A stretch of 64,000 nt of DNA from an uncultured Erythrobacter sp. (GTDB lineage: Bacteria > Pseudomonadota > Alphaproteobacteria > Sphingomonadales > Sphingomonadaceae). Positions 2,829 through 57,200 of the stretch are shown piece by piece. Positions within the stretch are counted from its first letter, which is position 1. Every line of letters starts with the position of its first letter. The DNA is taken from assembly GCA_947501005.1 (NCBI GenBank), contig CANMTU010000001.1:1512501-1576500 (forward strand). The letters are read 5' to 3'. Made by a program: the position numbers and the translations under genes. The notes beneath the pieces were generated by a model. That model ran no database searches, was not told the origin of the DNA, and worked only from the letters and a program-made list of their open reading frames with translations.

Positions 2829-3674
2829 TCACCCGCGTTCGCCCCGAGCCGGCCACTGGGCAGCCCTTGCCGACCTTGCCGATCCTGCCGACCTTGCACG
2901 GGAAGAAAACGGCAGTCGCTGCTCCCTCGGGTCAGCCTGGTTTGCAGCGGGCTCGGGCTGATCGGTCCGGCGGCTTGCCACCAACACCCCGCCGCCATCG
3001 CCCAGCACCCACGTACCCGGCCGGTGCCCGCGCGCGCGGAACAGGTCCGCCTGCCATGCCGGCGCACCCGGCGCCTGCGCGTTCCAGCGTGGCGCGGGCG
3101 ACGGCGTGCTCGTCACCTCCCACCGCATCCGCGCCGAGGACAGGTCACGGCGGGCATCGAGCCGCACGAGGAACAGCGGAACGCCATGCTTTTGCGAGAC
3201 CAGCGTAAGCCGGCGCGAGGCAGTGAAATCGAGCGACCTGGGATTGCCCGCCACCTCGCCCACCACGAAGGCCAGGTCGCGGCATCGCAGCCCCTCTTCC
3301 AGCGCGAACAGGGCATCTTCCGGCTTTTCGGCCAGCACGTGGATGACCCGGTGGCGCATGTCTTCGGGCAGGCCGGCGCGGCAGGGCCGGCCCGACAGGC
3401 GCGCCGCCTCGCGCGTCTGCACCCACAACACGCCGCGCCGGTCCTCTGCCTCCTCGGTTTCGCCGCGCGGCGTGTTGCGCCAGTCGTCGAGCGCCAGCGC
3501 CAGCGCCGCGCCCGCCCCCGCCGCCTCGCGCGAGGAGACGAACACCTCACTGTGCAGGGCCTTGCCCTCCTGCGCCGCCAGGCCCGGCCACCAGCGCGCA
3601 CTGCGCCGGGCGCACAGCGTTGCCATGTCTTCGATCGCCGCTTCGGGCAGGGAGGAGAGGTCGGGTTGGGTCAT
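2829..3674 (-). CDS. imuA: ImuA, RecA-like mutasome protein
   Basis: A 281-residue ImuA homologue, the first gene of the damage-inducible imuA-imuB operon. ImuA is a small RecA/SulA-related protein needed for induced mutagenesis with ImuB and DnaE2. Recognisable stretches are the opening LCARRSARWWPGL, the segment ALDDWRNTPRG and FVVGEVAGNPRSLDFTASRRL, which corresponds to the RecA-fold core. The C-terminal tail (SARSAGSARSARAAQW) is low complexity and is encoded by a short near-tandem repeat (about 2868-2900), so it may be lineage-specific. The ATG lies 18 bases from a perfect alphaproteobacterial LexA box. Confidence 0.88.
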   Translation of the reverse strand: MTQPDLSSLPEAAIEDMATLCARRSARWWPGLAAQEGKALHSEVFVSSREAAGAGAALALALDDWRNTPRGETEEAEDRRGVLWVQTREAARLSGRPCRAGLPEDMRHRVIHVLAEKPEDALFALEEGLRCRDLAFVVGEVAGNPRSLDFTASRRLTLVSQKHGVPLFLVRLDARRDLSSARMRWEVTSTPSPAPRWNAQAPGAPAWQADLFRARGHRPGTWVLGDGGGVLVASRRTDQPEPAANQADPREQRLPFSSRARSAGSARSARAAQWPARGERG

Positions 3675-4405: not shown

Positions 4406-5974
4406 TCAGGTCTTGTCGATCGGCAGCGCGTCCTCGCGGCCCTCGATATCGTCGACCACCGTCACGATGCCTTGGCCCAGATGGCTGCGATGGCGGCTGT
4501 AGACGAAATAGATCACCACCCCGATCAATCCCCAGCCCGGCAGGAACAGCATCGCCGCGGTCGGCAGATTGAAGAACAGCAAGACGCAGCCGACGATGGT
4601 CAGCGGGGCGACGATCCATACGAACGGCACCTTGAAATGGCGCTGCCGGTTCGGATCGCTCCGCCGCAGCACCAGCACCGCGATCGCCACCATCATGAAG
4701 GCGTAGAGCGTCCCCGCATTGGAGATATCCGCCAGCTGCCCGACCGGGAAGAACGCCGCGCCGATGGCCACCGCGATACCGGTCATGATCGTGACGATAT
4801 GCGGGGTGCGGTACTTGGGATGCACCTTGCTGAGTCTTTCAGGCAGCAATCCATCGCGGCTCATGACGAAGAAGATGCGCGTCTGGCCGAAAATCAGCAC
4901 CAGGATCACCGATGGCAGGGCGATGATCGCCGCCAGCCCCACCGCGCTGCCGATCCACGAGAACCCGAGCACTTTCAGGACATGGGCCAGCGGCTCGTTC
5001 GAGCAGACCAGCGCCTCGGCATATTGGGGCAGCGCGCATTGCCGGGCCAGTTCCTGCGAACCGGCCTCGAGCGGCAGGCCCATCGCATCGAGGATCGGCT
5101 GCCCGCCAATGGTGCCGATCGCACCGGCCGCGACGAGGATGTAGAACACCGTGCAGAACAATAGCGAGCCGATCAGGCCGATCGGTACGTTGCGTTGCGG
5201 GTCCTTGGTTTCTTCCGCCGCAGTCGAGACCGCATCGAAACCGACATAGGCGAAGAACATCGTTGCCGCCGCGCCGACTGCGCCCACGCCCGAACCCCAG
5301 CCGCCGAAGATGCCCGCTGGCAGGAAGGGGTTGAAATGCCCGGCGGTGAATTCAGAACTGGTCAGCGTGATCGCCACGAAGGCGGTCAGCGCCGTGACCT
5401 TGATCGCCACGAGGACGGCGTTCACCTTGGCGCTCTCGCTCGTGCCAATGACCAGCAGCCAGGTGACCAGCAAGGCGATGGTCAGCGCGGGAAGGTTGAT
5501 CAAGCCGCCCTCTGCCCCGCCAAGTGCCAACGGGCCGGCGCTGAGCCAGGCGGGCAGACTGATGCCGAGACCGCCGAGGATCGTGCCCGAGAAATATCCC
5601 GACCAGCCGACCGCGACCGCCGAGGCGGCAATCGCGTATTCCATGATGAGCGCCCAGCCCACCGTCCAGGCGAGAAATTCGCCCACGGTGGCGTAGCTGT
5701 AGGTGTAGGCGCTGCCGGCCACGGGGATCATCGCCGCGATCTCGGCATAGCAGAGCGCCGCCACGATGCAGACCAGACCGGCAAGCCCGAAGGCGATCAT
5801 CAAGCCGGGGCCGGCCTTCTGCGCGCCGACCGAAGTCAGCACGAAAATGCCGGTGCCGATGACGCAGCCGATCCCCAACAGGGTAAGCTGCAACCAGCCA
5901 AGCGATCGCTCGAGCGATTTCTGCTGGGCGGTTTCGAGAATGGCATCGAGGGGTTTGACGCGGTTGAAAATCAT
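4406..5974 (-). CDS. APC-family amino acid permease
   Basis: A 522-residue integral membrane protein of the amino acid-polyamine-organocation superfamily, closest in appearance to the cationic amino-acid transporter (CAT/YfnA) group. The first helix carries the family signature LLGIGCVIGTGIFVL, followed by AGPGLMIAFGLAGLVC and the helix 3 region PVAGSAYTYSYATVGEFLAW. Roughly twelve to fourteen hydrophobic segments are visible. An extra loop with three cysteines (residues about 305-330, ARQCALPQYAEALVCSNEP) separates helices 7 and 8. It is downstream of, and on the same strand as, an NSS transporter (97-base gap). Substrate cannot be told from sequence. Confidence 0.88.
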   Translation of the reverse strand: MIFNRVKPLDAILETAQQKSLERSLGWLQLTLLGIGCVIGTGIFVLTSVGAQKAGPGLMIAFGLAGLVCIVAALCYAEIAAMIPVAGSAYTYSYATVGEFLAWTVGWALIMEYAIAASAVAVGWSGYFSGTILGGLGISLPAWLSAGPLALGGAEGGLINLPALTIALLVTWLLVIGTSESAKVNAVLVAIKVTALTAFVAITLTSSEFTAGHFNPFLPAGIFGGWGSGVGAVGAAATMFFAYVGFDAVSTAAEETKDPQRNVPIGLIGSLLFCTVFYILVAAGAIGTIGGQPILDAMGLPLEAGSQELARQCALPQYAEALVCSNEPLAHVLKVLGFSWIGSAVGLAAIIALPSVILVLIFGQTRIFFVMSRDGLLPERLSKVHPKYRTPHIVTIMTGIAVAIGAAFFPVGQLADISNAGTLYAFMMVAIAVLVLRRSDPNRQRHFKVPFVWIVAPLTIVGCVLLFFNLPTAAMLFLPGWGLIGVVIYFVYSRHRSHLGQGIVTVVDDIEGREDALPIDKT

Positions 5975-45858: not shown

Positions 45859-46793
45859 ACGGGCTCGCGCTGTTCGGACCGGTCGTCGCGGCCATGATCC
45901 CGGCGCAGGCCCTGGCGCAGCATGCGGGGCACGGGGCAGCAGTGCCGACGGCGGAGGCGCCGCAGGACCAGGCGCAATCCAATCCGGCTCCGCCGCCGCC
46001 CGTCATTCGCCCGCTCGATATTCCCAGGCCGCCTGCGTTGCCGCCGATACCCGAGGCCCCGCCGCCGCCCGATGCCGGCTCCGGCCCCGCTCGCGCCGCC
46101 GACGCGATCTGGGGGGCCGAAGCGATGCGCGATAGCCGCGAGGCGCTGCGCGACCACCACGGCAGCCAGTCCTTTGGCGTGTTCCGCGCCGACCGGTTCG
46201 AATATCGCGCGCGTCGCGGGCGCAATGCCTATCTGTGGGATGTGGACGCCTGGTATGGCGGCGATATCGACCGGCTGTGGCTCAAGAGCGAGGGCGAAGG
46301 CGCGTTCGGCGAGGAGCTCGAACAGGCCGAGATCCAGGCCTTGTGGAGCCATGCCATCGGCCCTTGGTTCGACTTGCAGACCGGTATCCGCCAGGATCTG
46401 GCCGGCCCGGCGCGCACCCATGCGGTGATCGGCCTGCAGGGTCTGGCGCCCTATCTGTTCGAGATCGACGGCGCCCTGTTCCTCTCTCATAAGGGCGAAC
46501 TGACCGCCGGGATCGAAGCCGAGATCGATCAGCGCATAACGCAGCGCCTGATCCTGCAACCGCGCGGGGAAATTACGCTTTCGGCGCAGGATATTCCGGA
46601 ATTGGGCCTCGGCGCCGGGGTGACTTCGGTCGAAGCCGGGCTGCGCCTGCGCTACGAATTCGCCCGCGAGTTCGCACCCTATATCGGGATCGAACAGGAA
46701 TGGCGGCTGGGCGGCACGGCGGACCTTGCCCAGTCAGAAGGGGAAGACCCGTCCGTTACCAGTTTCGTCGTCGGCGTGCGGTTCTGGTTCTAG
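45855..46793 (+). CDS. copB: CopB-type outer membrane copper resistance protein
   Basis: A 312-residue outer-membrane barrel protein. A signal peptide (residues 1-21) is followed by a His-containing start of the mature protein (HAGHG), a proline-rich stretch (about 42-75), and the CopB core (YLWDVDAWYGGDIDRLWLKSEGEG; ALWSHAIGPWFDLQTGIRQD), ending in a barrel-type C-terminal FWF. The GTG start overlaps copA (GTGA). CopB binds or sequesters copper at the outer membrane. It converges on a Crp/Fnr-type gene with an overlap of four bases. Confidence 0.92.
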   Translation: MNGLALFGPVVAAMIPAQALAQHAGHGAAVPTAEAPQDQAQSNPAPPPPVIRPLDIPRPPALPPIPEAPPPPDAGSGPARAADAIWGAEAMRDSREALRDHHGSQSFGVFRADRFEYRARRGRNAYLWDVDAWYGGDIDRLWLKSEGEGAFGEELEQAEIQALWSHAIGPWFDLQTGIRQDLAGPARTHAVIGLQGLAPYLFEIDGALFLSHKGELTAGIEAEIDQRITQRLILQPRGEITLSAQDIPELGLGAGVTSVEAGLRLRYEFAREFAPYIGIEQEWRLGGTADLAQSEGEDPSVTSFVVGVRFWF

Positions 46794-47587
46794 CCCGGCA
46801 CGGCAGCCGGCATCAGTCCCGCCCCCCCCCCAGGCAACGGCGGTCCGTCGGCATAGAGGTAGTCCGGCGCGAAACCGGCGAAGCGTTTGAGACCGTCCCA
46901 GTCCTCGGTATACAAATCGCCGCGCCGGATTTCGGCGACGCCGAGTTCGCGCAGCTTGCCCACCGCCCGATTGGCGTGGATCGCGCTCACCCCGCACATG
47001 TCGGCCAGATCGAGCTGGGTGAACGGCGTCCGCAAGACCCGCGCCGCGGGCCGGTCGATGAGGCACAGCCGCTCGTGCAGTTCAGCATAGAGGTGCGCGA
47101 TCCGGCGCGGCGCGTCGAGCTGTTCGAGGATCTGGATCCACTTGCGATGGATCGCGGCATCCATGAGCGTGGCGAACCACATCGCCCGGGCGATGTTCGG
47201 CCGATCCTGCATGACCGTGCGCAACCGATCGTGACCGACATAACCGACCGTGACCGGCCCCGCCGCCACCAGATCGTGATCCAGCCGCTTGAGCGCGAAG
47301 CCATGCAGATCGATGAAATCGCCCGGCACGTGCACGCCGACGATAAAGCGCTTGCCGCCGCGCATGATGGTGCGGAACACGAAGCCTTCGATCAAAATCG
47401 TGCTGCGATCGGTCAATTGCGCCCGCTTGACCAGCACGGCGCCGTCGGGGTGATCCGCCACCGTTTCGATCAGCCCTTCAATATAGGCCAGGTCCTCGGC
47501 TTCGAACTGCCGCCGCGACCGCCCGGCGAGGAAATCGCCGGTCAGCGGATACGGGGTCTTCTTCATCGTCGTGCGCAATGCGTCCAT
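46790..47587 (-). CDS. Crp/Fnr-family regulator (paralogue 1)
   Basis: A 265-residue regulator with a cyclic-nucleotide-binding-like fold (about 20-150) and a winged helix at the C-terminus (TPFTQLDLADMCGVSAIHANRAVGKLRELGV). The segment VPGDFIDLHGFALKRLDHD and the tail FAPDYLYADG are shared with paralogue 2 at 48436, so these come from a duplication. No FNR-type cysteine cluster is seen, so oxygen sensing through Fe-S is unlikely. It sits just past the copper genes and before the sulfotransferase. Confidence 0.88.
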   Translation of the reverse strand: MDALRTTMKKTPYPLTGDFLAGRSRRQFEAEDLAYIEGLIETVADHPDGAVLVKRAQLTDRSTILIEGFVFRTIMRGGKRFIVGVHVPGDFIDLHGFALKRLDHDLVAAGPVTVGYVGHDRLRTVMQDRPNIARAMWFATLMDAAIHRKWIQILEQLDAPRRIAHLYAELHERLCLIDRPAARVLRTPFTQLDLADMCGVSAIHANRAVGKLRELGVAEIRRGDLYTEDWDGLKRFAGFAPDYLYADGPPLPGGGAGLMPAAVPG

Positions 47588-47638
47588 CGCGCCGATTATC
47601 CAAGGGCGGCAAGGATGGTCTATTGACGAATATTAGGT

Positions 47639-48439
47639 TTATGTTCCTTTTTTGTTTTTCCCGCAGCCTTGAGACATCGAAGCGCATGCCTTCTCGCGCA
47701 CGGCGCGCAGGGGATGGCGAACGATCGGGGTGAACGCCTCTACCGCCCCGCCCGGCGCATAACCCCATGCGGCCATGCGCGATGCACGGCCCGCCCCCGC
47801 CCCGTCGGCATAGGCGTAGTCGGCATTTCCGTCGCGAACCGGTTCGCAGATCGGGCGCGGTTCGAGATCGAGGAAAGCGAACAGGCCCGCCATGACCCGC
47901 TCGGGATCGCGCACCAGATCCTCGTACCGGATCACGCAGGCGGCGTGGAGATATTCGAGGTCGCGGGCGACGATGTCGTAGGCGTCGAGCGCATAGGCGA
48001 CGAGGTCCTGCTGCGCGCGGTCGGTCCATTTCGACAGGGCGGCGGCCATCGCCTCGGGATGCCGCAGGATCACGATGAACTGCGCCAGCGGGAAAAGCTG
48101 CTGGTAGAGCCGCATCCGCATGAGGTTGACCGGCGATTTCTCGATCCGCCAGCTGCCCTGCTCGGGGAACCAGAGATCCCAGTCCGCCACCAGCCGCCGC
48201 CTGGTTTCCAGCGTATCGTAGAACGAGCCCTCGACGTGATGCTGCGCCGGGTCGAGCGCGTAATGGCCCGGTATGCCGTGGCGCGCGGTATGGGGGATCG
48301 CCCCTTGCAGGTAACACCCCTCATCTTCGGGCGCGGGCGATCCGGTGATCGCCCCGATGGCGGGATGGCCGGACAGCAGGCGGGTCAGCAGGCTCGTGCC
48401 GGTCCGATGCAGGCCCGCCACGAAGACATAGCGGGTCAT
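47639..48439 (-). CDS. Sulfotransferase family protein
   Basis: A 266-residue PAPS-dependent sulfotransferase. The 5'-phosphosulfate loop is LHRTGTSLLTRLLSGHP (residues 9-25), and the 3'-phosphate site reads ILRHPEAMAAALSKW (Arg and Ser in place). It would put a sulfate group on a hydroxyl of an unknown glycan, lipid or small molecule. It is translationally coupled (ATGA) to the upstream Crp/Fnr gene, so the regulator and the enzyme are made together. The four glycosyltransferase genes next door make a sulfated sugar product plausible, but this is inference. Confidence 0.87.
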   Translation of the reverse strand: MTRYVFVAGLHRTGTSLLTRLLSGHPAIGAITGSPAPEDEGCYLQGAIPHTARHGIPGHYALDPAQHHVEGSFYDTLETRRRLVADWDLWFPEQGSWRIEKSPVNLMRMRLYQQLFPLAQFIVILRHPEAMAAALSKWTDRAQQDLVAYALDAYDIVARDLEYLHAACVIRYEDLVRDPERVMAGLFAFLDLEPRPICEPVRDGNADYAYADGAGAGRASRMAAWGYAPGGAVEAFTPIVRHPLRAVREKACASMSQGCGKNKKGT

Positions 48440-49224
48440 GGCCTGCCGTCGGCGCTCAACTCGCCTTCGCGGACCTGCAAGCCCCCCTCGCCATAGAGAT
48501 AGTCGGGCGAAAAATCGGCATAACGCTCCAACGCTGCGCGGTCCCTCACGGTCACGCGCCCGCGATGGAAGTCCGCGATGCCGAGCCGGCGCAATTCGGA
48601 GATGGCCCGGTTGGTGTGAATGGGCGTCGCGCCGCACATCTCGGCCACGTCGCTCTGGCGCAGCGGCGTCTCGAACCCGTCGGGATAGCCGAGCCCGACC
48701 ATTTCGAGCCGGCGCCAGATCTCGGCGAAGACATGGGCGATCCGGCGCGGTGTCTTCAACTGTTCAAGCTTCAGGATCCATTCGCGGTGCATCGCCGCGT
48801 CGAGCAGGGTGGAAAACCAGAACAGGTGGGCCAGATGCGGCGCTTCCCGCATCGTGCGGATGATCTCGTCATGCGGCACCGAGGCGACCTTGCAGGGGCC
48901 GATGCAGTCGATGTTGTGATCGAGCCGCTTCAACGCGAAACAGTGCAGATCCACGAAATCGCCGGGCACGTGGAAGCTGACGACGAAGCGCTTGCCGTCA
49001 GATTCGAGCGTGCGCAGCATGAAACCTTCGACCAGCATGGTCGACTGGTCGCAGCGCGAGCCGCGCGAGATCAGGCGATCGCCATGGTCGTGCCGTTCGA
49101 CGATGCTTGCCATATCCTCGAGCCGCTGCCGCTCTTCCTCGGACATGGCGGAGCGCAGCCGGCCTTCGAGGAAGCGCCCGGTATTGGGAAACCGCCGAAG
49201 TTCGGCTTCGATCGCGTTATTCAT
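48436..49224 (-). CDS. Crp/Fnr-family regulator (paralogue 2), coupled to the sulfotransferase
   Basis: A 262-residue Crp/Fnr-type regulator, clearly related to the gene at 46790 (VPGDFVDLHCFALKRLDHN against VPGDFIDLHGFALKRLDHD, and FSPDYLYGEGG at the tail). Its helix-turn-helix reads TPLRQSDVAEMCGATPIHTNRAISELRRLGIA. Its stop overlaps the sulfotransferase start (ATGA). A GAGG ribosome site lies upstream of ATG 49224. It is divergent from the GT4 gene, so the 119-base gap may hold its operator. Ligand unknown. Confidence 0.88.
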   Translation of the reverse strand: MNNAIEAELRRFPNTGRFLEGRLRSAMSEEERQRLEDMASIVERHDHGDRLISRGSRCDQSTMLVEGFMLRTLESDGKRFVVSFHVPGDFVDLHCFALKRLDHNIDCIGPCKVASVPHDEIIRTMREAPHLAHLFWFSTLLDAAMHREWILKLEQLKTPRRIAHVFAEIWRRLEMVGLGYPDGFETPLRQSDVAEMCGATPIHTNRAISELRRLGIADFHRGRVTVRDRAALERYADFSPDYLYGEGGLQVREGELSADGRP

Positions 49225-49261
49225 CAGACCTCATTCCTGCGGCTGAATGGCGGCAAATCCA

Positions 49262-49280
49262 TGCGATCGCAACGATTGTT
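49262..49280. promoter_or_regulatory. Palindromes in the divergent gap before GT4
   Basis: TGCGATCGCA (49262-49271) is a perfect 10-base palindrome and CAAC-GATT-GTTG (49269-49280) is an adjoining inverted repeat. Both lie between the Crp/Fnr gene and the GT4 gene, where an operator is expected. Assignment to the Crp/Fnr protein is unproven. Confidence 0.4.
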
Positions 49281-49343
49281 GGCGTCAGGGGCGAAAATCC
49301 CTGTAAGGCGCGCTTTCATAAAGAACGGGGCCTTGCCGAATTC

Positions 49344-50474
49344 ATGAAGATCGCGGTCGTCGCGCATATTCGCTATCCCATCGCCGAGCCGTTCAGCGGA
49401 GGGATGGAGGCGCACACGCACTTGCTGTGCAAGGGGCTGCGCGCGGCGGGCCATGCGGTCACCCTGTTCGCGCCCGCCGGGTCGGACGATGCGGACCTCG
49501 TGCCCATCTGCGATCCCTACGACGCCGTTCTCCCGTGGGAGGTCTATCGCGGTACGCCCCGCCTCGCCGCCTATCAGCACGACGCTTTCGAGACCGCGAT
49601 GCGCGAGATCGCGCGGGGCGGCTTCGATGTCGTTCACAACAACGCCCTGTTTCCCGACCTGATCGGCTGGTGTTCGGCGGCACGCCAGCCTTGCGTCACA
49701 TCGCTGCACGTCCCGCCCTTTCAGGGTCTGGTCGACGCTGTGCGGCACGCCGGGGGGCAGAACTGGGCTGTGGTCACCGTCCCCTCGGCAAGCCAGCAGG
49801 CATCGTGGGAGGGGCGCGGGGCGCAAGGTCTGATGGTCGTGCCAAACGGCGTCGATACGCAGCGCTGGCAGCCGGCCGGCGAACCGGGGTCCTATCTCAC
49901 TTGGACCGGGCGGATCGTACCGAACAAGGGCTTGTCCTACGCCGTCGCCGCGGCCCGGCAGGCGGGCGCCGAACTGCGCATCTACGGCCCGGTCGAGGAC
50001 GAGACCTATTTCAGCCGGCAGATCGAACCGTTCCTCGGCGGCCTCGTGTCCTATCGCGGGCATCTTCCCGCCGATGCCCTGCGGCGCGAGATCGCCGGTG
50101 CGTACGGCGCGCTGATCACCCCCATGTGGGACGAACCGTTCGGCCTCGTCGCTGCGGAGGCGCTGGCCTGCGGCGTTCCGGTCGCCGCCTTCGATCGCGG
50201 TGCCCTGTCCGAAGTGGTCGGACCGTGCGGCATTCTGGTCCCCGGCGGCGACAGCGAGGCGCTGGCCAAAGCGATCCCGCGCCTTTCCGGGATCAAGCGG
50301 GCCGCGTGCCGTGCACGGGCCTGCGCGACGCTGTCGGTTTCAGCGATGATCGAACGCTACGAACGCTGCTACGACGCGGCCATCGAGGGTGCGGGTGCCG
50401 GAGAGGCCACGGCCTCTTCCGCCGCCGCCGCTTCAAGTTCGGCGAGGACGACGGCGCTGCTCGCGAAGGGCTGA
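49344..50474 (+). CDS. GT4-family glycosyltransferase
   Basis: A 376-residue GT-B glycosyltransferase of family 4. Visible parts are the N-terminal HIRYPIAEPFSGGMEAHTHLL, the acceptor-domain VVHNNALFPD, the linker IVPNKGLSYAVAAARQAG, and the sugar-nucleotide site (PMWDEPFGLVAAEALACGVPVAAF) with the EX7E-like E-x7-E. The ATG at 49344 has no strong ribosome site; a TTG at 49333 is possible. The last 106 bases overlap the convergent GT2 gene, and the C-terminal tail is low complexity (SSAAAASSSA), so the family core ends before the overlap. Donor and acceptor are unknown. Confidence 0.9.
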   Translation: MKIAVVAHIRYPIAEPFSGGMEAHTHLLCKGLRAAGHAVTLFAPAGSDDADLVPICDPYDAVLPWEVYRGTPRLAAYQHDAFETAMREIARGGFDVVHNNALFPDLIGWCSAARQPCVTSLHVPPFQGLVDAVRHAGGQNWAVVTVPSASQQASWEGRGAQGLMVVPNGVDTQRWQPAGEPGSYLTWTGRIVPNKGLSYAVAAARQAGAELRIYGPVEDETYFSRQIEPFLGGLVSYRGHLPADALRREIAGAYGALITPMWDEPFGLVAAEALACGVPVAAFDRGALSEVVGPCGILVPGGDSEALAKAIPRLSGIKRAACRARACATLSVSAMIERYERCYDAAIEGAGAGEATASSAAAASSSARTTALLAKG

Positions 50475-51316
50475 TCTTCCTGCTGCCGCGTCAGTGCAAG
50501 ATCGGCCTCGTCGGGATCGCGCAGCTTGACCCACTCTCCATCCTGGTCGCGCGCGATCAGGCCCATCAGGCGAAAGGCGCGCAACCAGTGCTGCATCGTC
50601 GGTTCGCCCCATTTGCGGGCGAACAGCGAGGAATTGCGGATCACGCTGTCGACATGATGGACGGGCGGCATGTGATGCGGGTGATACTGGTGATAGGCCT
50701 TCGCCCCGCGCGTCCACCACAGGGGCACGCCGTCTTCCGCGATCCTGCGCCCGAAATCGGTATCCTCGCCGCCATAGCCGACATAGCGCGGATCGAAGCC
50801 GCCGAGCCGATCGAACGTCTCCTTGCGCAAGGCGAAGTTGAGCGACCAGAAACACCGGTAGTCCTTGCAGGCCCCCACTTGCTCGATCGGCGGCCCGGCC
50901 CGCTCGCTATGCAGGACGGCGGCGTTTTCGAACCGTTCGTAATCGATGCCGCCATCGGTTGCGCCCTTGGGCAGATAGCCGACTTCGCCCATGAAGACGC
51001 CGTCGTATAAGGCGGCGGCGCGGCTGTAATCGTCGATCAGGCCGGCCGACGGAATGCAATCGACGTCGAGGAACACGAGCAATTCGCCCTGTGCCTTGCC
51101 TGCCGCCCGGTTGCGTGCTTCGGCGAGGCAGATGTCGTTGCCCGCCAGCATGATCTGATGGATGGGAAAGCTGGTCGCCGGCACGTCGTAGCGCCGGTCC
51201 TGCATCACCCCGATCACGAGTTCTCGCGGCGGCCGGCGCGACCGGTCGAGGCCGAGCACGAGATTGGTCAGATGCGCTTGCCGCCCATGGGCGAGCGTGC
51301 AGACGGAAACGCTCAT
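50369..51316 (-). CDS. GT2-family glycosyltransferase
   Basis: A 315-residue GT-A glycosyltransferase. The metal-binding DxD reads VFLDVDCIPSAG (about 93-104), and a likely catalytic ED is in GYGGEDTDFGRRI (about 190-202). GGFDPRYVGYGG precedes it as in GT2 enzymes with N-terminal GT-A folds. The start overlaps the GT28-like gene's stop (ATGA). The final 106 bases are shared with the opposite-strand GT4 gene, and this end is also low complexity (LEAAAAEEAVASPAPAPS). It may add sugars to the same glycan as its neighbours. Confidence 0.88.
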   Translation of the reverse strand: MSVSVCTLAHGRQAHLTNLVLGLDRSRRPPRELVIGVMQDRRYDVPATSFPIHQIMLAGNDICLAEARNRAAGKAQGELLVFLDVDCIPSAGLIDDYSRAAALYDGVFMGEVGYLPKGATDGGIDYERFENAAVLHSERAGPPIEQVGACKDYRCFWSLNFALRKETFDRLGGFDPRYVGYGGEDTDFGRRIAEDGVPLWWTRGAKAYHQYHPHHMPPVHHVDSVIRNSSLFARKWGEPTMQHWLRAFRLMGLIARDQDGEWVKLRDPDEADLALTRQQEDQPFASSAVVLAELEAAAAEEAVASPAPAPSMAAS

Positions 51317-52452
51317 CCCACCACCTCGAGCGCGGGGCGCGACGGGGCGCCCGCCCAGATGCGCCGCGCAAGATCGTCGAGCCAACGCGCGGCCTTGTCC
51401 GCCGCGTCGGGATCGACCAGCGCCTGCTGGCGCGCGATATCGATGTTTGCGGCCGCGTCCCATAGTCTCGCCCAGGCGCTACCATGCGAAGGCCAGGTGC
51501 GGCCGATTGCGGCGACCCCCGCCCGTTCAAGCGCCTCGGCCTTGCAGGTCTGCTCGTCGAAATAGCGCCATTCGGGAATGACGACCCACGGCTTGCCCGC
51601 CGCCATCACCATATGCGCGGTGGTGTTGCCACAGGACGACACGATGCGGTCCGCCGCCGCGATCCAGTCCTGCGGATTGTCGACCCAACCGCGATGTTCG
51701 AGATTGCCCGGCGGCGTCTCGTGCCATTCGCGGCGGACCTTGCCGATCGTGATCCACGCGCTGTCCGGCTCGGCTCGGGCGCCCAACGTGATCGGCGTGT
51801 TGGGCGATCCTTCCCCGCCCCCGCCCGCGATAACGAGCACGATGTCCTGCTGCGGATCGAGGCCGAGGCGCGCGCGTGCCGTGCCCTTGTCCGGGATCGC
51901 GGCAATCTCGATGCCGACGCCCGGCGCGTAAAAGATCTTCGCGCGGTGGCGGGGCGCCCGATCGTCCTGCTCCAGCCCGGCGGCATAGGGGGCGAGCAAG
52001 CCCACGGCCCCGTCATAGGCCGCCATATGCGCAGGATCGGTGCGCTCGCCATGCTGCAACACCGCGACATGCGGCACCGAACACAGCCGGGCAAGCTGCG
52101 CCAGTTCGGCCGAAACGTCGGTGACGAACAGAGCGGGGCGCTGCTCGGCGAACCAGTTGGCGATGGTTGCGCAGGCCCGCGTGATGCCTGGCCAGCCGAT
52201 GGGCGCGCAATGCACGGTATCCGGCATCGCCAGCGCGGCCATCCCCGGCGCTTCCTCGCCCGAGGCTTCGAACAGAGACGGTATGCGAATCACCTCCACC
52301 CGGTCGGCCAGCGGCGGAAAGATATCGTCGCGGGCGCAGAACAGGGTCACCCCGCGCTGCCCCGCGAGGCGGTTGGCGATGGCGGCGGCGCGTTCGGCAT
52401 GGCCGCGCCCCTGATGATGCACGAAATAGCCGATCGGCTGCGACAGGCTCAC
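51313..52452 (-). CDS. MurG/GT28-like glycosyltransferase
   Basis: A 379-residue GT-B glycosyltransferase of the MurG/UDP-sugar-diacylglycerol type. The N-terminal HHQGRGHAERAAAIANRLAG is the glycine-rich GHxxR-type loop; the C-terminal half carries VLVIAGGGGEGSP and ADRIVSSCGNTTAHMVMAAGKPWVVIPEWRYFDE, the sugar-nucleotide site. It begins with GTG overlapping the previous gene's stop (GTGA) and ends in an ATGA overlap with the GT2 gene, so the three GT genes are one translational unit. Confidence 0.85.
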   Translation of the reverse strand: MSLSQPIGYFVHHQGRGHAERAAAIANRLAGQRGVTLFCARDDIFPPLADRVEVIRIPSLFEASGEEAPGMAALAMPDTVHCAPIGWPGITRACATIANWFAEQRPALFVTDVSAELAQLARLCSVPHVAVLQHGERTDPAHMAAYDGAVGLLAPYAAGLEQDDRAPRHRAKIFYAPGVGIEIAAIPDKGTARARLGLDPQQDIVLVIAGGGGEGSPNTPITLGARAEPDSAWITIGKVRREWHETPPGNLEHRGWVDNPQDWIAAADRIVSSCGNTTAHMVMAAGKPWVVIPEWRYFDEQTCKAEALERAGVAAIGRTWPSHGSAWARLWDAAANIDIARQQALVDPDAADKAARWLDDLARRIWAGAPSRPALEVVG

Positions 52453-54527
52453 GACCCGAACCTCGCATTGGCCAGCTTGCGGCGCGTCCGGCGATGGCTG
52501 AGCACGCCTTCCAGCGCCCCCGCCCCGAACGAGCGGCGCGCGACATAGACGTTGGGCCGATCGCGCAGGGCGGCAACTTCCTCCGAATGATTGCCGACCA
52601 GAATGGCGTTGTCGCACGCGCTCAGCATATCCTCGTCGTTCCCGCTGTCCCCGGCGGCGAACACGTCCGATCGCGCGACGCCCAGCATATCCGCTACGAA
52701 GCACATCGCGGCGCCCTTGCCCGCGCGCAGCGGCAGGATATCGAGCATGTTGCCGTGACTGAAGATCACCCGCGCCGGCAGACCGTGAGCGGCCAACCGT
52801 TCGCGCACCAATGCGGCCACCTGCGGGGTTTCGGTGAGATAGCTGCGCTTGAAGCGTCGCTGTTCGTAAATCGCCTGGGGGACCAGGCCAGGAATGTCCT
52901 CGCAGGCATGGGTGATCGCCTCGGCGTCCCAGCCCTGCGCGATGGTTTCGGCAAACAGGGCGTCGAGTTCCAAGCTTCCGCCCCGGTCCCAGTAGATTTC
53001 GCTTCCCACGGACGCGATCCAGGCCGCCGGGCGCGGAAGCCCCCAGTCGCGCACCAGCCGCCGCGCCTCGACCAGCGAGCGGCCGGTCGCCACCGCGAAG
53101 GCGAAATCCCGGCGGCGCGTGAAGAACCCGGCGAAGCGCGCCGCGCCGCTGGTGCAACCGGTCAACGTGTTGTCGATATCGCTGACGACGAGATGGCGGA
53201 CATGCGATGCGGTGGCGGCCTGCGGGGTAGCTTCAACGATACTGCGGGCGATCGCCATGAAGGCGCCGGCATAGGCGGCCCAGCTCATGGAGCGGACATT
53301 CGCCGCGGCGTTGCGCGCGTATCGGGTCCACAAGGACCGGTCCTGCATGATCCGTTCCATCGCGGTGCGGATGTCGGCGACCGAAGTGGGTTCGATCAGC
53401 ACCCCGTGTTCGAGTTCGGCAAGGATGTCGAGCGGGCCGCCGACCTTCGTCGCGACGACCGGCAGGCCATGCGAGGCCGCCTCGATGAGGGTGAGGCCAT
53501 AGGGTTCCATCAAGGCCGGATTGACGAACAGCCCGCCCGACTGCGCCGCGAGCCGGTAGAGCCCGCCGACCTCGTCTCGGGTGTGCGACTTGGGATAGGC
53601 GACCCGGCCATAGAGATCGTGCCGGTCGATCGCGGCGAACAGATCGTGCAGGACCTCCGCCTGCTCGCTGCCCGGCGGGGGCGCCTCGTCGCGCAAGCCC
53701 GCCAGCACGACGAGATTGCACCGCTCGCGTAGCATCGCGCTCGAACCGAAGGCGTCGACCAGCCGGGCGAGGTTCTTCTTGTGGACCGGTCGTGCGATGG
53801 CCAGCAGGACAGGCTTGTCCGGATCGCGCAGGAACGGGGCGATCAGGGCGCGTGCGTCTTCGAGGGCGGTGGCGGACTGGACCGGCGGGCACACACCGGG
53901 CGCGATACGATGGGTCTTGCCGATCGCAGCGGCGCGGTAGGCGGGGATCTGGCGTTCGCATTCATCGCGCGAGGACCCGATGATCGCGGAGGCACCGGCG
54001 ATGGCGCGCGTCTCTTCCGCGATGCGGGCGCGATGCCCTGCCGTATGCTCGCCGCCGAGGGCCGCCGCCTTGTCCTTGCCCAGCGAATGCGCGGTATAGA
54101 CGAAGGGTATGCCGAGCGCACGCTCGACCTGCGCGGCGACATCCGCCGCATCGGCGAAATGGGCGTGAATGATGTCGGGGAGGCGCGCACGCCCCCGCAG
54201 TTCGGCAATCAATGCGGCGGCGAACGCGGCCCGGTCGGCCGACAGCGCATCTTTCGCCAGATAGGCGCGGTTGCCGCTATCGATGCGGGTGATCGACAGT
54301 TTCTCCGTCACGCGCTCATGTGCCAAGGCATGCACGGGATCGAGGCCGGGCACGTCGAACAGGCGCGTGACGATTTCAGCCCGACTGACGTCAGCCCGTT
54401 CGGCCAGCGCCTGCATTTCCCCGAGAATATAGCTGATATGCCCGCCAGTGTCCTCGGTAATCCCGTAACGCACCGGCTCTGCCTTCAGGCAGCCGCCGAG
54501 CGCGATGGAAACAATGTGCAAACGCAT
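52449..54527 (-). CDS. Sucrose-phosphate-synthase-like glycosyltransferase fused to HAD phosphatase
   Basis: A 692-residue two-domain protein. Residues 1-430 are a GT4 domain of the sucrose-phosphate synthase type: GITEDTGGHISYILGEM for the acceptor side, ADAADVAAQVERALGIPFVYTAHSLGKDK, VLLAIARPVHKKNLARLVDAFG and EPYGLTLIEAASHGLPVVAT. Residues 445-692 are a HAD-IIB phosphatase (SDIDNTLTGC as motif I; GKGAAMCFVADMLG and AAGDSGNDEDML for later motifs), as in the sucrose-6-phosphate phosphatase fused to SPS. It probably makes sucrose or a related disaccharide. It heads the three-gene GT operon. Confidence 0.87.
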   Translation of the reverse strand: MRLHIVSIALGGCLKAEPVRYGITEDTGGHISYILGEMQALAERADVSRAEIVTRLFDVPGLDPVHALAHERVTEKLSITRIDSGNRAYLAKDALSADRAAFAAALIAELRGRARLPDIIHAHFADAADVAAQVERALGIPFVYTAHSLGKDKAAALGGEHTAGHRARIAEETRAIAGASAIIGSSRDECERQIPAYRAAAIGKTHRIAPGVCPPVQSATALEDARALIAPFLRDPDKPVLLAIARPVHKKNLARLVDAFGSSAMLRERCNLVVLAGLRDEAPPPGSEQAEVLHDLFAAIDRHDLYGRVAYPKSHTRDEVGGLYRLAAQSGGLFVNPALMEPYGLTLIEAASHGLPVVATKVGGPLDILAELEHGVLIEPTSVADIRTAMERIMQDRSLWTRYARNAAANVRSMSWAAYAGAFMAIARSIVEATPQAATASHVRHLVVSDIDNTLTGCTSGAARFAGFFTRRRDFAFAVATGRSLVEARRLVRDWGLPRPAAWIASVGSEIYWDRGGSLELDALFAETIAQGWDAEAITHACEDIPGLVPQAIYEQRRFKRSYLTETPQVAALVRERLAAHGLPARVIFSHGNMLDILPLRAGKGAAMCFVADMLGVARSDVFAAGDSGNDEDMLSACDNAILVGNHSEEVAALRDRPNVYVARRSFGAGALEGVLSHRRTRRKLANARFGS

Positions 54528-54567
54528 TCCCCTGAATAATCCATCGGTATAACGGATGAGGGGGCGT

Positions 54568-54586
54568 TTGGTTCAGAATAAACCAA
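54568..54586. promoter_or_regulatory. Inverted repeat upstream of the SPS-like gene
   Basis: TTGGTT-CAGAATA-AACCAA (54568-54586) is a perfect inverted repeat 41 bases before the start codon, in the operator position of the three-gene glycosyltransferase operon. No binding protein is known. Its arms do not match the TGTAAAT repeat by aceA. Confidence 0.5.
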
Positions 54587-54617
54587 TGTTGATGAACGTT
54601 TCGCCGGGGCGTGAATC

Positions 54618-57200
54618 TTATGCCGATTTCTGCCGTGGCGTGTGCTGCTCCTCGATCCTCACCACCTGGGGCAATGGGCGACCGAACAGGAACCCTTGCA
54701 GGTAGGCGCAGCCGAGATCGCGCATGTGCTGCGCCTGTTCGCTCGTCTCGATCCCCTCGGCCGTGATCTGGAAATCCAGCGATCGCGCGAGCGAGACGAT
54801 TGCCGACACGATCGCCATGCTGCGCGGCAAGCCCGCAGCGGCGGACTGGACGAAATCGCGATCGATCTTGATGAGCGCGAAATCGATGTCCTCGAGGTGG
54901 CTCAGCGAGGAATTTCCGCGCCCGAAATGATCGAGGGCGAGCCCCACGCCCAGCAGGCGAAGGCTTTGAAGCAACCCGGTCAGGTTGTCGCTCATCTGGG
55001 TGAAGATGCTCTCGTTCAGTTCCAGAATTACGCGATCGGCCGGAAATCCGCTGCTGGCCAGGGCATCGACCATGATCTTGAGGAAGTTCGTATCCCCCAA
55101 CTGCAATGTCGATATGTTGAGGGCGAGCTTCACGTCCGCGTCCCACTGCGCCGCGTCGAGGCAGGCGGTCCGCACCAGCCATGCGCCGATCTGCTGGATG
55201 AGGCGCTTGCTTTCGGCCAGGGGTATGAAGCTGTCGGGATAGAGCAGCCCGCGTTCGGGATGGTCCCACCGCATCAAGGCCTCGCGATAGGCGATCGCCC
55301 CGGTGCGTGCGTCGACGATCGGCTGATAATGCAGTTTTAATTCGCCGTTCCGCAAGGCGTTGGCGAGATCGCTTTCCAGCAGCGACCGGTCCTCGATCGC
55401 CTTGCGCATGGCCGGGCGGTAGAGGACACTGGCGCCCCGGCCGCGTCGCTTGGCTTCGTATAGCGCGAGGTCGGCATTGGTGGTGAGAAGGGAAGATGTC
55501 TCCCCATCCGTGCCGAGCATCGCGATACCGATGGACGCCCCGATATAGATATCCGCCTCGCCGAATGCGTACCGCTCGCTGATCCGTGCGATCAGGGCAA
55601 CCGCCAGCCGCCGCGCGACTGACGCATCGGTCGTCTGGGGCAGAATCGCGGCAAACTCGTCTCCGCCCAGTCGGCCGATTATCGCTTTCTCGCCCAATCC
55701 TTCGCGCAAACGGGTGGCGACCTGCGCCAGCACGGTATCGCCCGCCAGATGGCCGTTCTGATCGTTGACCTGCTTGAAATGGTCGAGATCGAGCAGCATC
55801 AGCGCCGCGCCCTGATCCGTGCCTGCCCGCACCTGCGAAAGCAATTGTTCCAGCGATTCGCGAAAATGGTTGCGGCCCATCAGGCCGGTCAGCCCGTCGT
55901 GGCGCGAGACGTGAAGCAATTGCGCATTGGCCGTACGCAGCGCCTCGCGGTTGCGGTTGGACACGCGAGAGGCGGCCAGGGTTATGAAGGCAAGCAGGAT
56001 GGCGATGATGCTGCCGGCCGAAAGGATCAACACCTTGTTGCGGGCCAGCGTGAGTTCGCTGGCGCTGGCCTGCGAGCGCGCAGAAAGACGGGCGATGTGC
56101 AGCTCGCGATCGGTCGCCTCGAAGCGGGCGGCCATCATGGCATCGTGCGCCTTGATCGCCTTTTCCCGGCGCAGTTCCTCGATCCGCGCATGGGCGGCGA
56201 GGCGCTGCATCGCCTCGCGATAGCGGCCTTTCGCGCGGTAGACCTCGTAGGCCACATGATCCGTGTCGGCCGGGCGGGCGGCGGCCTGACGCCAGGCGTC
56301 GCTTGCGTATGACCGTTCGAGCCAAGCCAGCGCCGCGCCGTCGTCGCCGCGAACATGGGCGAGCCGGGCCATAACCGCCTGCACATAGGGCAGCATCCCG
56401 GCGGCATGGCCCCTTGCCGCCAGCAACGCCCGATTGGCACTCCGCCCCGCTTCCGCCGGGTGATTGCCGGCAAGCTGGATCCCCGCAAGATCGGCCAGCA
56501 GCCTTGCCTCCTGCGCGTGACGCCCATGCCGCCGCGCAATGCCGAGTGCGGTGCGCATGGCAAGCTGGGCTTCGACCAGCCGCCCGAGTTCCTGTAGCGC
56601 CTCCGCCTTCCTGGCATGCGCTTCGATTGCCATAGCGGGATCCTCCGGATAGGCGCGGTGCGCGGCATCGTAATAGAGCAGCATCCGGGGATAATCCTGC
56701 GCATCGGCGTGCAGCGCGCCGATATCCTGCAGGATTGCCGCCCGGCGCCTGTCCTCCCCGCTATCACTGAAGATTCGCCCCGCCCGGCGGAAGCTGCGCA
56801 GCGCGGCCCTGTAGTCGCCTTCTCGCACGTCGAGCCGGGCGCGCGATTGCAAAAGGTCGCCATGCACCGCGTCATTCGCGGCGAACCGTTGCGCGAACGC
56901 CAACGCCGCGTCGATCTCGGCCCCCGCTTCGGTCGTACGGCCAAGGCGGCGCAAGGCTTCGCCCTCGATCCAGTCCGCCGTGAGGCGGACACGCGCCGAT
57001 GCCCCGCCCTCCCCGCGCCGTTCGGCCAGGCGGACGGTCACCAGCGCTTTCGCCGGATCGTTCAGCAAGGCAGCGCGGGCGTTCTCGGTCGCGGCTTCGA
57101 ACGCAGCGGCCTGGCGCGATTGCGCGGCAACGATAGCGGGTGATTGCAGCGCGGCGGCCGCGAGGGCTGCGACCAGCCAACGCCTCACTGCTACTCTCAA
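54618..57200 (-). CDS. TPR-GGDEF-EAL cyclic di-GMP signalling protein
   Basis: An 860-residue inner-membrane protein. Order: signal peptide or anchor (residues 1-26), a periplasmic TPR-like helical domain (about 30-390, with repeats such as AILQDIGALHADAQDYPRML), a transmembrane helix (about 400-420), a GGDEF domain with intact RLGGDEFAAIL at about 512, then an EAL domain with REALMRW at about 640. The EAL loop that is normally DDFGTG reads DHFGRG, and the NIST and LELNE positions are also present (T changed to N in the latter). Synthesis of c-di-GMP is likely; hydrolysis may be weak. No operon partner. Confidence 0.92.
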   Translation of the reverse strand: MRVAVRRWLVAALAAAALQSPAIVAAQSRQAAAFEAATENARAALLNDPAKALVTVRLAERRGEGGASARVRLTADWIEGEALRRLGRTTEAGAEIDAALAFAQRFAANDAVHGDLLQSRARLDVREGDYRAALRSFRRAGRIFSDSGEDRRRAAILQDIGALHADAQDYPRMLLYYDAAHRAYPEDPAMAIEAHARKAEALQELGRLVEAQLAMRTALGIARRHGRHAQEARLLADLAGIQLAGNHPAEAGRSANRALLAARGHAAGMLPYVQAVMARLAHVRGDDGAALAWLERSYASDAWRQAAARPADTDHVAYEVYRAKGRYREAMQRLAAHARIEELRREKAIKAHDAMMAARFEATDRELHIARLSARSQASASELTLARNKVLILSAGSIIAILLAFITLAASRVSNRNREALRTANAQLLHVSRHDGLTGLMGRNHFRESLEQLLSQVRAGTDQGAALMLLDLDHFKQVNDQNGHLAGDTVLAQVATRLREGLGEKAIIGRLGGDEFAAILPQTTDASVARRLAVALIARISERYAFGEADIYIGASIGIAMLGTDGETSSLLTTNADLALYEAKRRGRGASVLYRPAMRKAIEDRSLLESDLANALRNGELKLHYQPIVDARTGAIAYREALMRWDHPERGLLYPDSFIPLAESKRLIQQIGAWLVRTACLDAAQWDADVKLALNISTLQLGDTNFLKIMVDALASSGFPADRVILELNESIFTQMSDNLTGLLQSLRLLGVGLALDHFGRGNSSLSHLEDIDFALIKIDRDFVQSAAAGLPRSMAIVSAIVSLARSLDFQITAEGIETSEQAQHMRDLGCAYLQGFLFGRPLPQVVRIEEQHTPRQKSA

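Follow-up and report, generated by a model that had tools for sequence, protein, structure and literature searches.

The window analyzed here is a stretch of 64,000 nucleotides from an uncultured Erythrobacter sp. (positions 1512501-1576500 of contig C1, CANMTU010000001.1, in a 3.1 Mb genome). Our subject is a gene set at window positions 46790-54527 that encodes, in this order, a Crp/Fnr-family regulator, a sulfotransferase, a second Crp/Fnr-family regulator, two glycosyltransferases (GTs) of the families GT4 and GT2, a GT28/MurG-like GT, and a fusion of a sucrose-phosphate synthase (SPS) with a phosphatase. An initial annotation, made from the sequence alone, had tentatively read this set as a sulfotransferase-glycosyltransferase module under cyclic-nucleotide-like control. 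Our analysis favors a different description, that of a general-stress-response module for an oligosaccharide, with the sulfotransferase as an optional member.

The sulfotransferase, the paired Crp/Fnr genes and the four GT genes named by that annotation are all present. The features of the locus are as follows, in window positions:

52449-54527, minus strand: SPS-like GT4 fused to a sucrose-phosphatase-like HAD domain (SPS/S6PP fusion); TIGR02472 376.6 bits, PF05116 189.8 bits
51313-52452, minus strand: GT28/MurG-like GT; MurG by profile (3.6e-7) and first in Foldseek
50369-51316, minus strand: GT2 glycosyltransferase; Glyco_transf_7C, 7.7e-11
49344-50474, plus strand: GT4 glycosyltransferase, convergent with GT2; Glyco_transf_4, 9.7e-20
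48436-49224, minus strand: Crp/Fnr-family regulator A; HTH_Crp_2, 6.4e-13
47639-48439, minus strand: sulfotransferase; PF13469, E 1.7e-22
46790-47587, minus strand: Crp/Fnr-family regulator B, a paralogue of A; HTH_Crp_2, 2e-9
54551-54575, minus strand: sigma-EcfG-type promoter TGAAC-N16-CGTT, with one mismatch to GGAAC-N16-CGTT
54581-54590, no strand: palindrome AAC-N4-GTT, a candidate Crp/Fnr operator adjoining the SPS promoter (motif scan)
49271-49280, no strand: palindrome AAC-N4-GTT between the divergent genes of regulator A and GT4 (motif scan)

The SPS/S6PP fusion is the first gene of the GT operon. Reading of the sequence confirmed the short overlaps that had been claimed, namely GTGA between SPS and GT28, ATGA between GT28 and GT2, and ATGA at 48436-48439 between regulator A and the sulfotransferase. 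The GT4 gene lies on the opposite strand and overlaps the 3' end of GT2 by 106 bp, which places it outside the operon of the other three GTs. On the two sides of the sulfotransferase, regulators A and B are 47% identical over 236 amino acids.

Conservation of the gene order

Could these genes stand together merely by chance? We searched 149 genomes of the family and 385 of the class. Among the former, 18, the window's own included, encode an SPS-like protein of full length (E ≤ 4e-137), adjoined in every case by a GT2 and a GT4 gene; GT28 lies inside the fetched stretch in 16 (L073 and L075 are without it). Half of these loci (9/18, again including our own) form the window's group, whose SPS proteins are 51-63% identical to that of the window. 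In the other nine, the SPS is 39-44% identical, the gene order is rearranged, and the GT4 is merely 28-34% identical, so that it may not be an ortholog. The distribution across the class is patchy, since GT28 (E ≤ 1e-30) was found in 4 of the 385 genomes and the sulfotransferase (E ≤ 1e-30) in 2, both among those 4.

A further scan, for which the GT28 alignment served as query, retained the best 80 of 339 relatives, and the counts on these 80 loci therefore cover the nearer part of the family. SPS, GT28 and GT2 follow each other in the identical order on one strand in 80/80 loci. GT4 is present in 79, at a distance of more than 3.5 kb in four of them, and the exception is a contig of 4.5 kb. 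The sulfotransferase accompanies the core in 46 of the 80 and a Crp/Fnr gene (at least 180 bits) in 26. By name, the loci belong to Sphingomonadales (Erythrobacteraceae, Sphingomonas and relatives), Rhodobacterales including Paracoccus, Loktanella and Limimaricola, Acetobacteraceae (Asaia, Acidisphaera), Pseudochelatococcus, and some unassigned metagenome-assembled genomes; those of the 80 that come from Acetobacteraceae or Pseudochelatococcus showed no sulfotransferase. The GT28 gene of one locus (L065, 9110-10222) is interrupted by an in-frame stop. Pooling with the 18 family loci gave 98. Two of these, L064 and L070, are duplicates of L089 and L112 and were removed, which leaves 96; L072 had been fetched on account of a distant sulfotransferase and, lacking the module, was not counted.

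Such a conserved neighborhood goes beyond a chance grouping. The pairwise distances of the four GTs correlate with each other (r 0.86-0.91). On the evidence of gene order, then, the module genes appear to form one system, as the initial annotation had supposed. A GGDEF-EAL protein with one transmembrane-like stretch is encoded directly upstream of the SPS gene (54618-57200); we considered it as a further member and rejected it, as a GGDEF-EAL match adjoins the module in just 1 of the 18 other regions from the family and in 2 of the 80 loci.

Promoter signals and the Sphingomonas melonis operon

Regions of 200 bp upstream of the module genes were scanned for the general-stress (sigma-EcfG) motif GGAAC-N16/17-CGTT with at most one mismatch. 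Of the 96 SPS regions, 67 carry the motif (7 as exact copies), compared with 6/96 for the motif written backwards. The counts for the other regions are 29/95 for GT4 (12 exact; backwards 5/95), 15/41 for regulator A (no exact copy; backwards 4/41) and 6/51 for the sulfotransferase (backwards 1/51). The internal genes of the operon served as a further control and gave 4/94 for GT28 and 2/96 for GT2; the background among the other open reading frames of the loci was 37/653 (4 exact), and shuffled SPS upstream sequences carried the motif in 3.9%. After thinning of the set to SPS proteins at most 75% identical, the SPS motif was retained in 50 of 72 loci, compared with 6/72 backwards and 3/71 and 2/72 for the internal genes. 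The window site, TGAAC-N16-CGTT, starts 48 nt before the SPS start codon. The window's own genome also encodes NepR, the anti-sigma factor of the general stress system, and an exact GGAAC-N16-CGTT lies 186 nt before the NepR match. The main control of the module is, to judge from these sequences, probably the general stress response.

The general-stress promoter signal, which the initial annotation missed, is both stronger and wider than the Crp/Fnr signal. Both regulators carry the Crp-type helix-turn-helix, and both fall below the Pfam cut-off for the cNMP_binding domain (25.5 and 26.2 vs. 27.5 bits). Classical control by cAMP or another cyclic nucleotide is therefore unsupported. Among the 37 loci with a Crp/Fnr gene, the palindrome AACAWTNRTT lies upstream of SPS in 9 (shuffled 0.3%), and regulator A is preceded by AAC-N4-GTT in 8 (shuffled 2.2%), figures that do not amount to an independent test, because the motif was picked after viewing the alignment and several of the loci are closely related. 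In the same 37 loci, neither the GT28 nor the GT2 upstream region contains the palindrome. Upstream of SPS in the 59 loci where no regulator gene (at least 180 bits) was found, AACAWTNRTT occurs in 2 and AAC-N4-GTT in 8 (shuffled 3.0%). The wider motif thus extends beyond the Crp-bearing loci. The window palindrome at 54581-54590 ends five bases before the -35 box. A palindrome of the Crp/Fnr kind suggests an added role for the regulators. Regulation by the Crp/Fnr pair keeps some support in those Crp-bearing loci that have the palindrome before SPS and the regulator gene, but 59 of the 96 loci yielded no regulator gene at the 180-bit threshold.

A link to measured gene expression comes from S. 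melonis Fr1. In the gene list of PMC6599016, the overlapping genes #3506-3509 change by log2 -3.3 to -4.3 in the ecfG mutant and rank among the 50 most EcfG-dependent genes; they are named "Predicted glycosyl transferase" (#3506), "Predicted glycosyltransferases" (#3507), "Glycosyltransferase" (#3508) and "Exopolysaccharide biosynthesis protein" (#3509). The promoter of the glycosyltransferase gene #3505 was EcfG-dependent by reporter assay (PMC6599016). The short upstream fragments printed in that paper can be placed in Sphingomonas sp. Leaf9 (L149). The 25-mer before #3507 has a single mismatch there and sits at exactly the printed distance, 51 nt, upstream of GT2. The fragment before #3508 lies 403 nt before GT4 (printed 400) with five mismatches, and has two mismatches in L156. 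The fragment before #3509 has four mismatches; from its end to the end of the GT4 frame there are 171 nt, which is the distance printed for the next gene. Because the distances at which these fragments fall in a relative fit its GT2 and GT4 genes, and given the overlapping genes and the fitting names in order, #3505-3509 are very probably the homologous SPS-GT28-GT2-GT4 operon. The S. melonis operon differs in that it continues with the "exopolysaccharide biosynthesis protein" (#3509 in the list of PMC6599016), where the window system has the sulfotransferase; six related loci have a pyruvyl transferase at the position equivalent to #3509. Leaf9 itself has no EcfG motif at up to one mismatch and no pyruvyl transferase. 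The trehalose cluster of S. melonis Fr1 is also reported as EcfG-dependent (PMC6599016), a precedent for a stress sugar under EcfG control.

Predicted enzymes and the nature of the product

What might such a module make? The SPS-like domain would transfer a sugar from a nucleotide donor to a phosphorylated sugar, and the fused HAD domain would take the phosphate off the product. The GT28, GT2 and GT4 enzymes would then extend the dephosphorylated product, and the sulfotransferase, where present, would sulfate it and thus render it anionic. Sigma-EcfG-type promoters would drive transcription before SPS and, in some loci, GT4, and in the window's clade the Crp/Fnr pair, without the usual cyclic-nucleotide pocket, may give a second control through AAC-N4-GTT. 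The compound would be a small, water-soluble, stress-induced oligosaccharide of the cytoplasm, sulfated where the sulfotransferase is present, a reading in which our confidence is evenly balanced and for which we infer the product identity, the order of the steps, the use of 3'-phosphoadenosine-5'-phosphosulfate (PAPS) and the protective role. The sulfated glycan or solute suggested at the outset stands as the best reading.

Three features point tentatively to a soluble product: none of the module enzymes shows an evident membrane-spanning segment (the 19-residue hydropathy mean peaks at 1.66, within a GT4 motif), the first step resembles a phosphosugar transfer by an enzyme with its own phosphatase, and no priming transferase, flippase or polymerase was found among the neighboring genes in Pfam scans covering the 39 other gene families present in at least 4 of 81 loci. 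The GT28-like enzyme has no Pfam match at E ≤ 1e-3; by profile, its best solved relative is MurG (3.6e-7), with a weak further match to monogalactosyldiacylglycerol (MGDG) synthase (E 0.012). Its predicted model (mean pLDDT, the per-residue confidence score, 86.2) shares the two-domain GT-B fold and the C-terminal donor site of the MurG/GT28 family (1f0k, 7d1i), and Foldseek ranks MurG first, at 14% identity in the alignment. GT1 enzymes acting on small molecules are among the matches of nearly equal rank.

Alternatively, the GT28-like enzyme could act, like MurG or MGDG synthase, on a membrane lipid, after which the other enzymes would extend the head group and the sulfotransferase would sulfate it, yielding a stress-induced glycolipid. 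Sphingomonads are rich in glycolipids, and the weak MGDG synthase match would fit. We nevertheless consider this unlikely, as the near-equal Foldseek matches include enzymes of small molecules, an SPS fused to a phosphatase implies a free phosphosugar acceptor, and the module is also found in Asaia, Paracoccus and Loktanella. A cluster for surface polysaccharide or exopolysaccharide appears quite unlikely. The name given to #3509 in PMC6599016 and the pyruvyl transferase in 6 of 96 loci speak for it, whereas the 39 scanned neighbor families include one ABC ATPase family, in six loci, and by Pfam none of the priming, flipping and polymerizing functions, and the module enzymes lack clear transmembrane stretches.

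The cytoplasmic oligosaccharide remains our preferred product, and the SPS-like enzyme suggests that it is not plain sucrose. The closest solved relatives of the fusion are 2r60 and 1s2o, and residues were equated through the 2r60 alignment and the motifs of residues named in the text of PMC7264703. Homology to SPS and sucrose-phosphatase (2r60, 1s2o, 6kih) extends to the catalytic His/Glu pair and the phosphate contacts (H147, E341, K92, R168, R246 and K251), which are kept in 95-96 of 96 loci, and to the HAD phosphatase motifs, which are whole in 91 of 96. In five Asaia loci (L130, L142, L150, L152, L153), the SPS-like protein has no phosphatase domain. On the other hand, the score is under both curated cut-offs (TIGR02472, 376.6 vs. 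576 bits; TIGR02471, 177.7 vs. 209.75 bits), three more GTs are tied to the enzyme, and the Gln that contacts the fructose unit of the acceptor in 2r60 and 4rbn is His in 96/96 loci. By its sequence, the enzyme is non-canonical, and the loss of the acceptor Gln with retention of the phosphate contacts suggests that its acceptor is a phosphorylated compound in place of, or in addition to, fructose-6-phosphate. The rival of sucrose synthesis in its ordinary form, with further GTs attached, could draw on the SPS and S6PP domains and their conserved catalytic positions, but the missed cut-offs and the His-for-Gln change make it very unlikely.

The sulfotransferase scores far above its family cut-off (PF13469, 81.2 vs. 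27 bits) and has orthologs in 51 of the 96 loci. Its P-loop residues H11, R12, G14 and T15 are invariant in 51/51 orthologs, as is Arg126; an Arg and a Ser usually contact the 3'-phosphate in sulfotransferases. PAPS could be supplied by the APS kinase encoded in the same genome (3.4e-69). The predicted model is of moderate quality (mean pLDDT 75.7, poor at residues 33-71) and is closest to tyrosylprotein sulfotransferases, at a template modeling (TM) score of about 0.5. The enzyme shares the P-loop and the core fold with these and with CurM-type bacterial sulfotransferases and differs from them in TM-scores of about 0.5 or lower and in an Ala at the presumed Ser position. Any sulfotransferase match occurs in 31 of the 149 family genomes and a close ortholog (E ≤ 7e-69) in 7, in all of which it adjoins the module; the copies in Rhodobacterales, having been located by way of the module, provide no independent test. 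A second sulfotransferase-like gene lies outside the module in the same genome (C1:1647613-1648341, L001; frame of 594 amino acids, PF13469 E 1.8e-27). That the module sulfotransferase is a mere passenger making sulfated carotenoids, which Erythrobacter flavus produces by a gene given as unknown in PMC6627997, is extremely improbable in view of the 7/7 close orthologs beside the module, the ATGA overlap with the regulator gene, and the absence of any carotenoid-pathway family from the 39 neighbor families.

Several observations weigh against a sulfated, EcfG-controlled soluble product. The sulfotransferase is missing from 45 of the 96 loci, an Ala replaces its usual 3'-phosphate Ser in 49 of 51 orthologs, and its distances follow those of the GTs less closely (r 0.54-0.64) than the GT distances follow one another, so that it is a looser member of the module. 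The GTs may act on lipid, and an exporter is possible given the one ABC ATPase family (6/81 loci) and seven of the 39 families without a Pfam match. As for control, the window SPS motif is mismatched at the first -35 base, the window GT4 upstream region has no EcfG motif at up to one mismatch, and 29 of 96 SPS loci are likewise without one, including 5 of the 7 named Qipengyuania, in whose motif-less SPS upstream regions a GTT-like -10 is often retained. In S. melonis, #3505 was classed by the authors as a putative indirect EcfG target (PMC6599016), one of the four printed fragments, that before #3506, found no fitting place, and the search pattern for S. melonis itself was seen in none of 397 family genomes.

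Other candidate tailoring genes occupy some of the loci that lack the sulfotransferase. A pyruvyl transferase and a second GT2 lie downstream in 6 of 96 loci, and six others carry a gene with a P-loop-like GQRCSGTN motif (L074, L076, L078, L079 at 4677-5363, L080 and L081). Two members of the latter family were scanned without a Pfam match and one was searched without a useful PDB match, and its candidacy as a sulfotransferase is unsupported. Neither gene ever co-occurs with the sulfotransferase in the 96 loci, and 33 loci lack all three. For the sulfotransferase and the pyruvyl transferase, mutual exclusion has a Fisher p of 0.009 (ancestry ignored) and is suggestive at most, as the groups follow taxonomy. 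Sulfate and pyruvate would each give a negative charge. We tentatively raise the possibility of a widespread, undescribed class of anionic oligosaccharide stress solutes in alphaproteobacteria, with a fixed SPS-like/GT28/GT2/GT4 core under sigma-EcfG and swappable tailoring enzymes. A parallel is the 2-sulfotrehalose pathway, said to have been described in haloarchaea by Youssef in 2014, in which a sugar-phosphate synthase, a phosphatase and a sulfotransferase reportedly also yield an anionic stress solute; it differs in its OtsA/OtsB chemistry, its archaeal hosts and the absence of further GTs.

Our searches of the open-licence PMC literature gave no description of the module product and, for the module itself, the S. 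melonis list alone. If our reading is correct, a large group of environmental bacteria would share a stress-made sugar compound that, to judge from the searched papers, has yet to be isolated, and the genes and strains listed here are ready for finding it. Sulfated stress solutes would then reach beyond the haloarchaea, from which they are reportedly known. It would also give a function to strongly EcfG-dependent S. melonis genes that are listed without one in PMC6599016.

Some neighboring genes recur around the module. LigD is found in 6 of 96 loci, CoxL-like genes in 8 of 96 and a catalase family in 5 of 81, and these resemble, as genes or in function, the Ku, CoxL and catalase entries in the S. 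melonis EcfG list of PMC6599016. Upstream of the module in Qipengyuania (L083, L085, L089, L091 and others) lie LigD and an operon for a CoxL/CoxM/CoxS-like molybdenum hydroxylase with a MobA-like gene. In the window's clade, genes for DUF1989 (21/96), YqcI/YcgG (19/81) and DUF421/YetF (15/96) proteins are often nearby, with examples at L089 16197-16772, L085 16768-17901 and L083 15649-16191.

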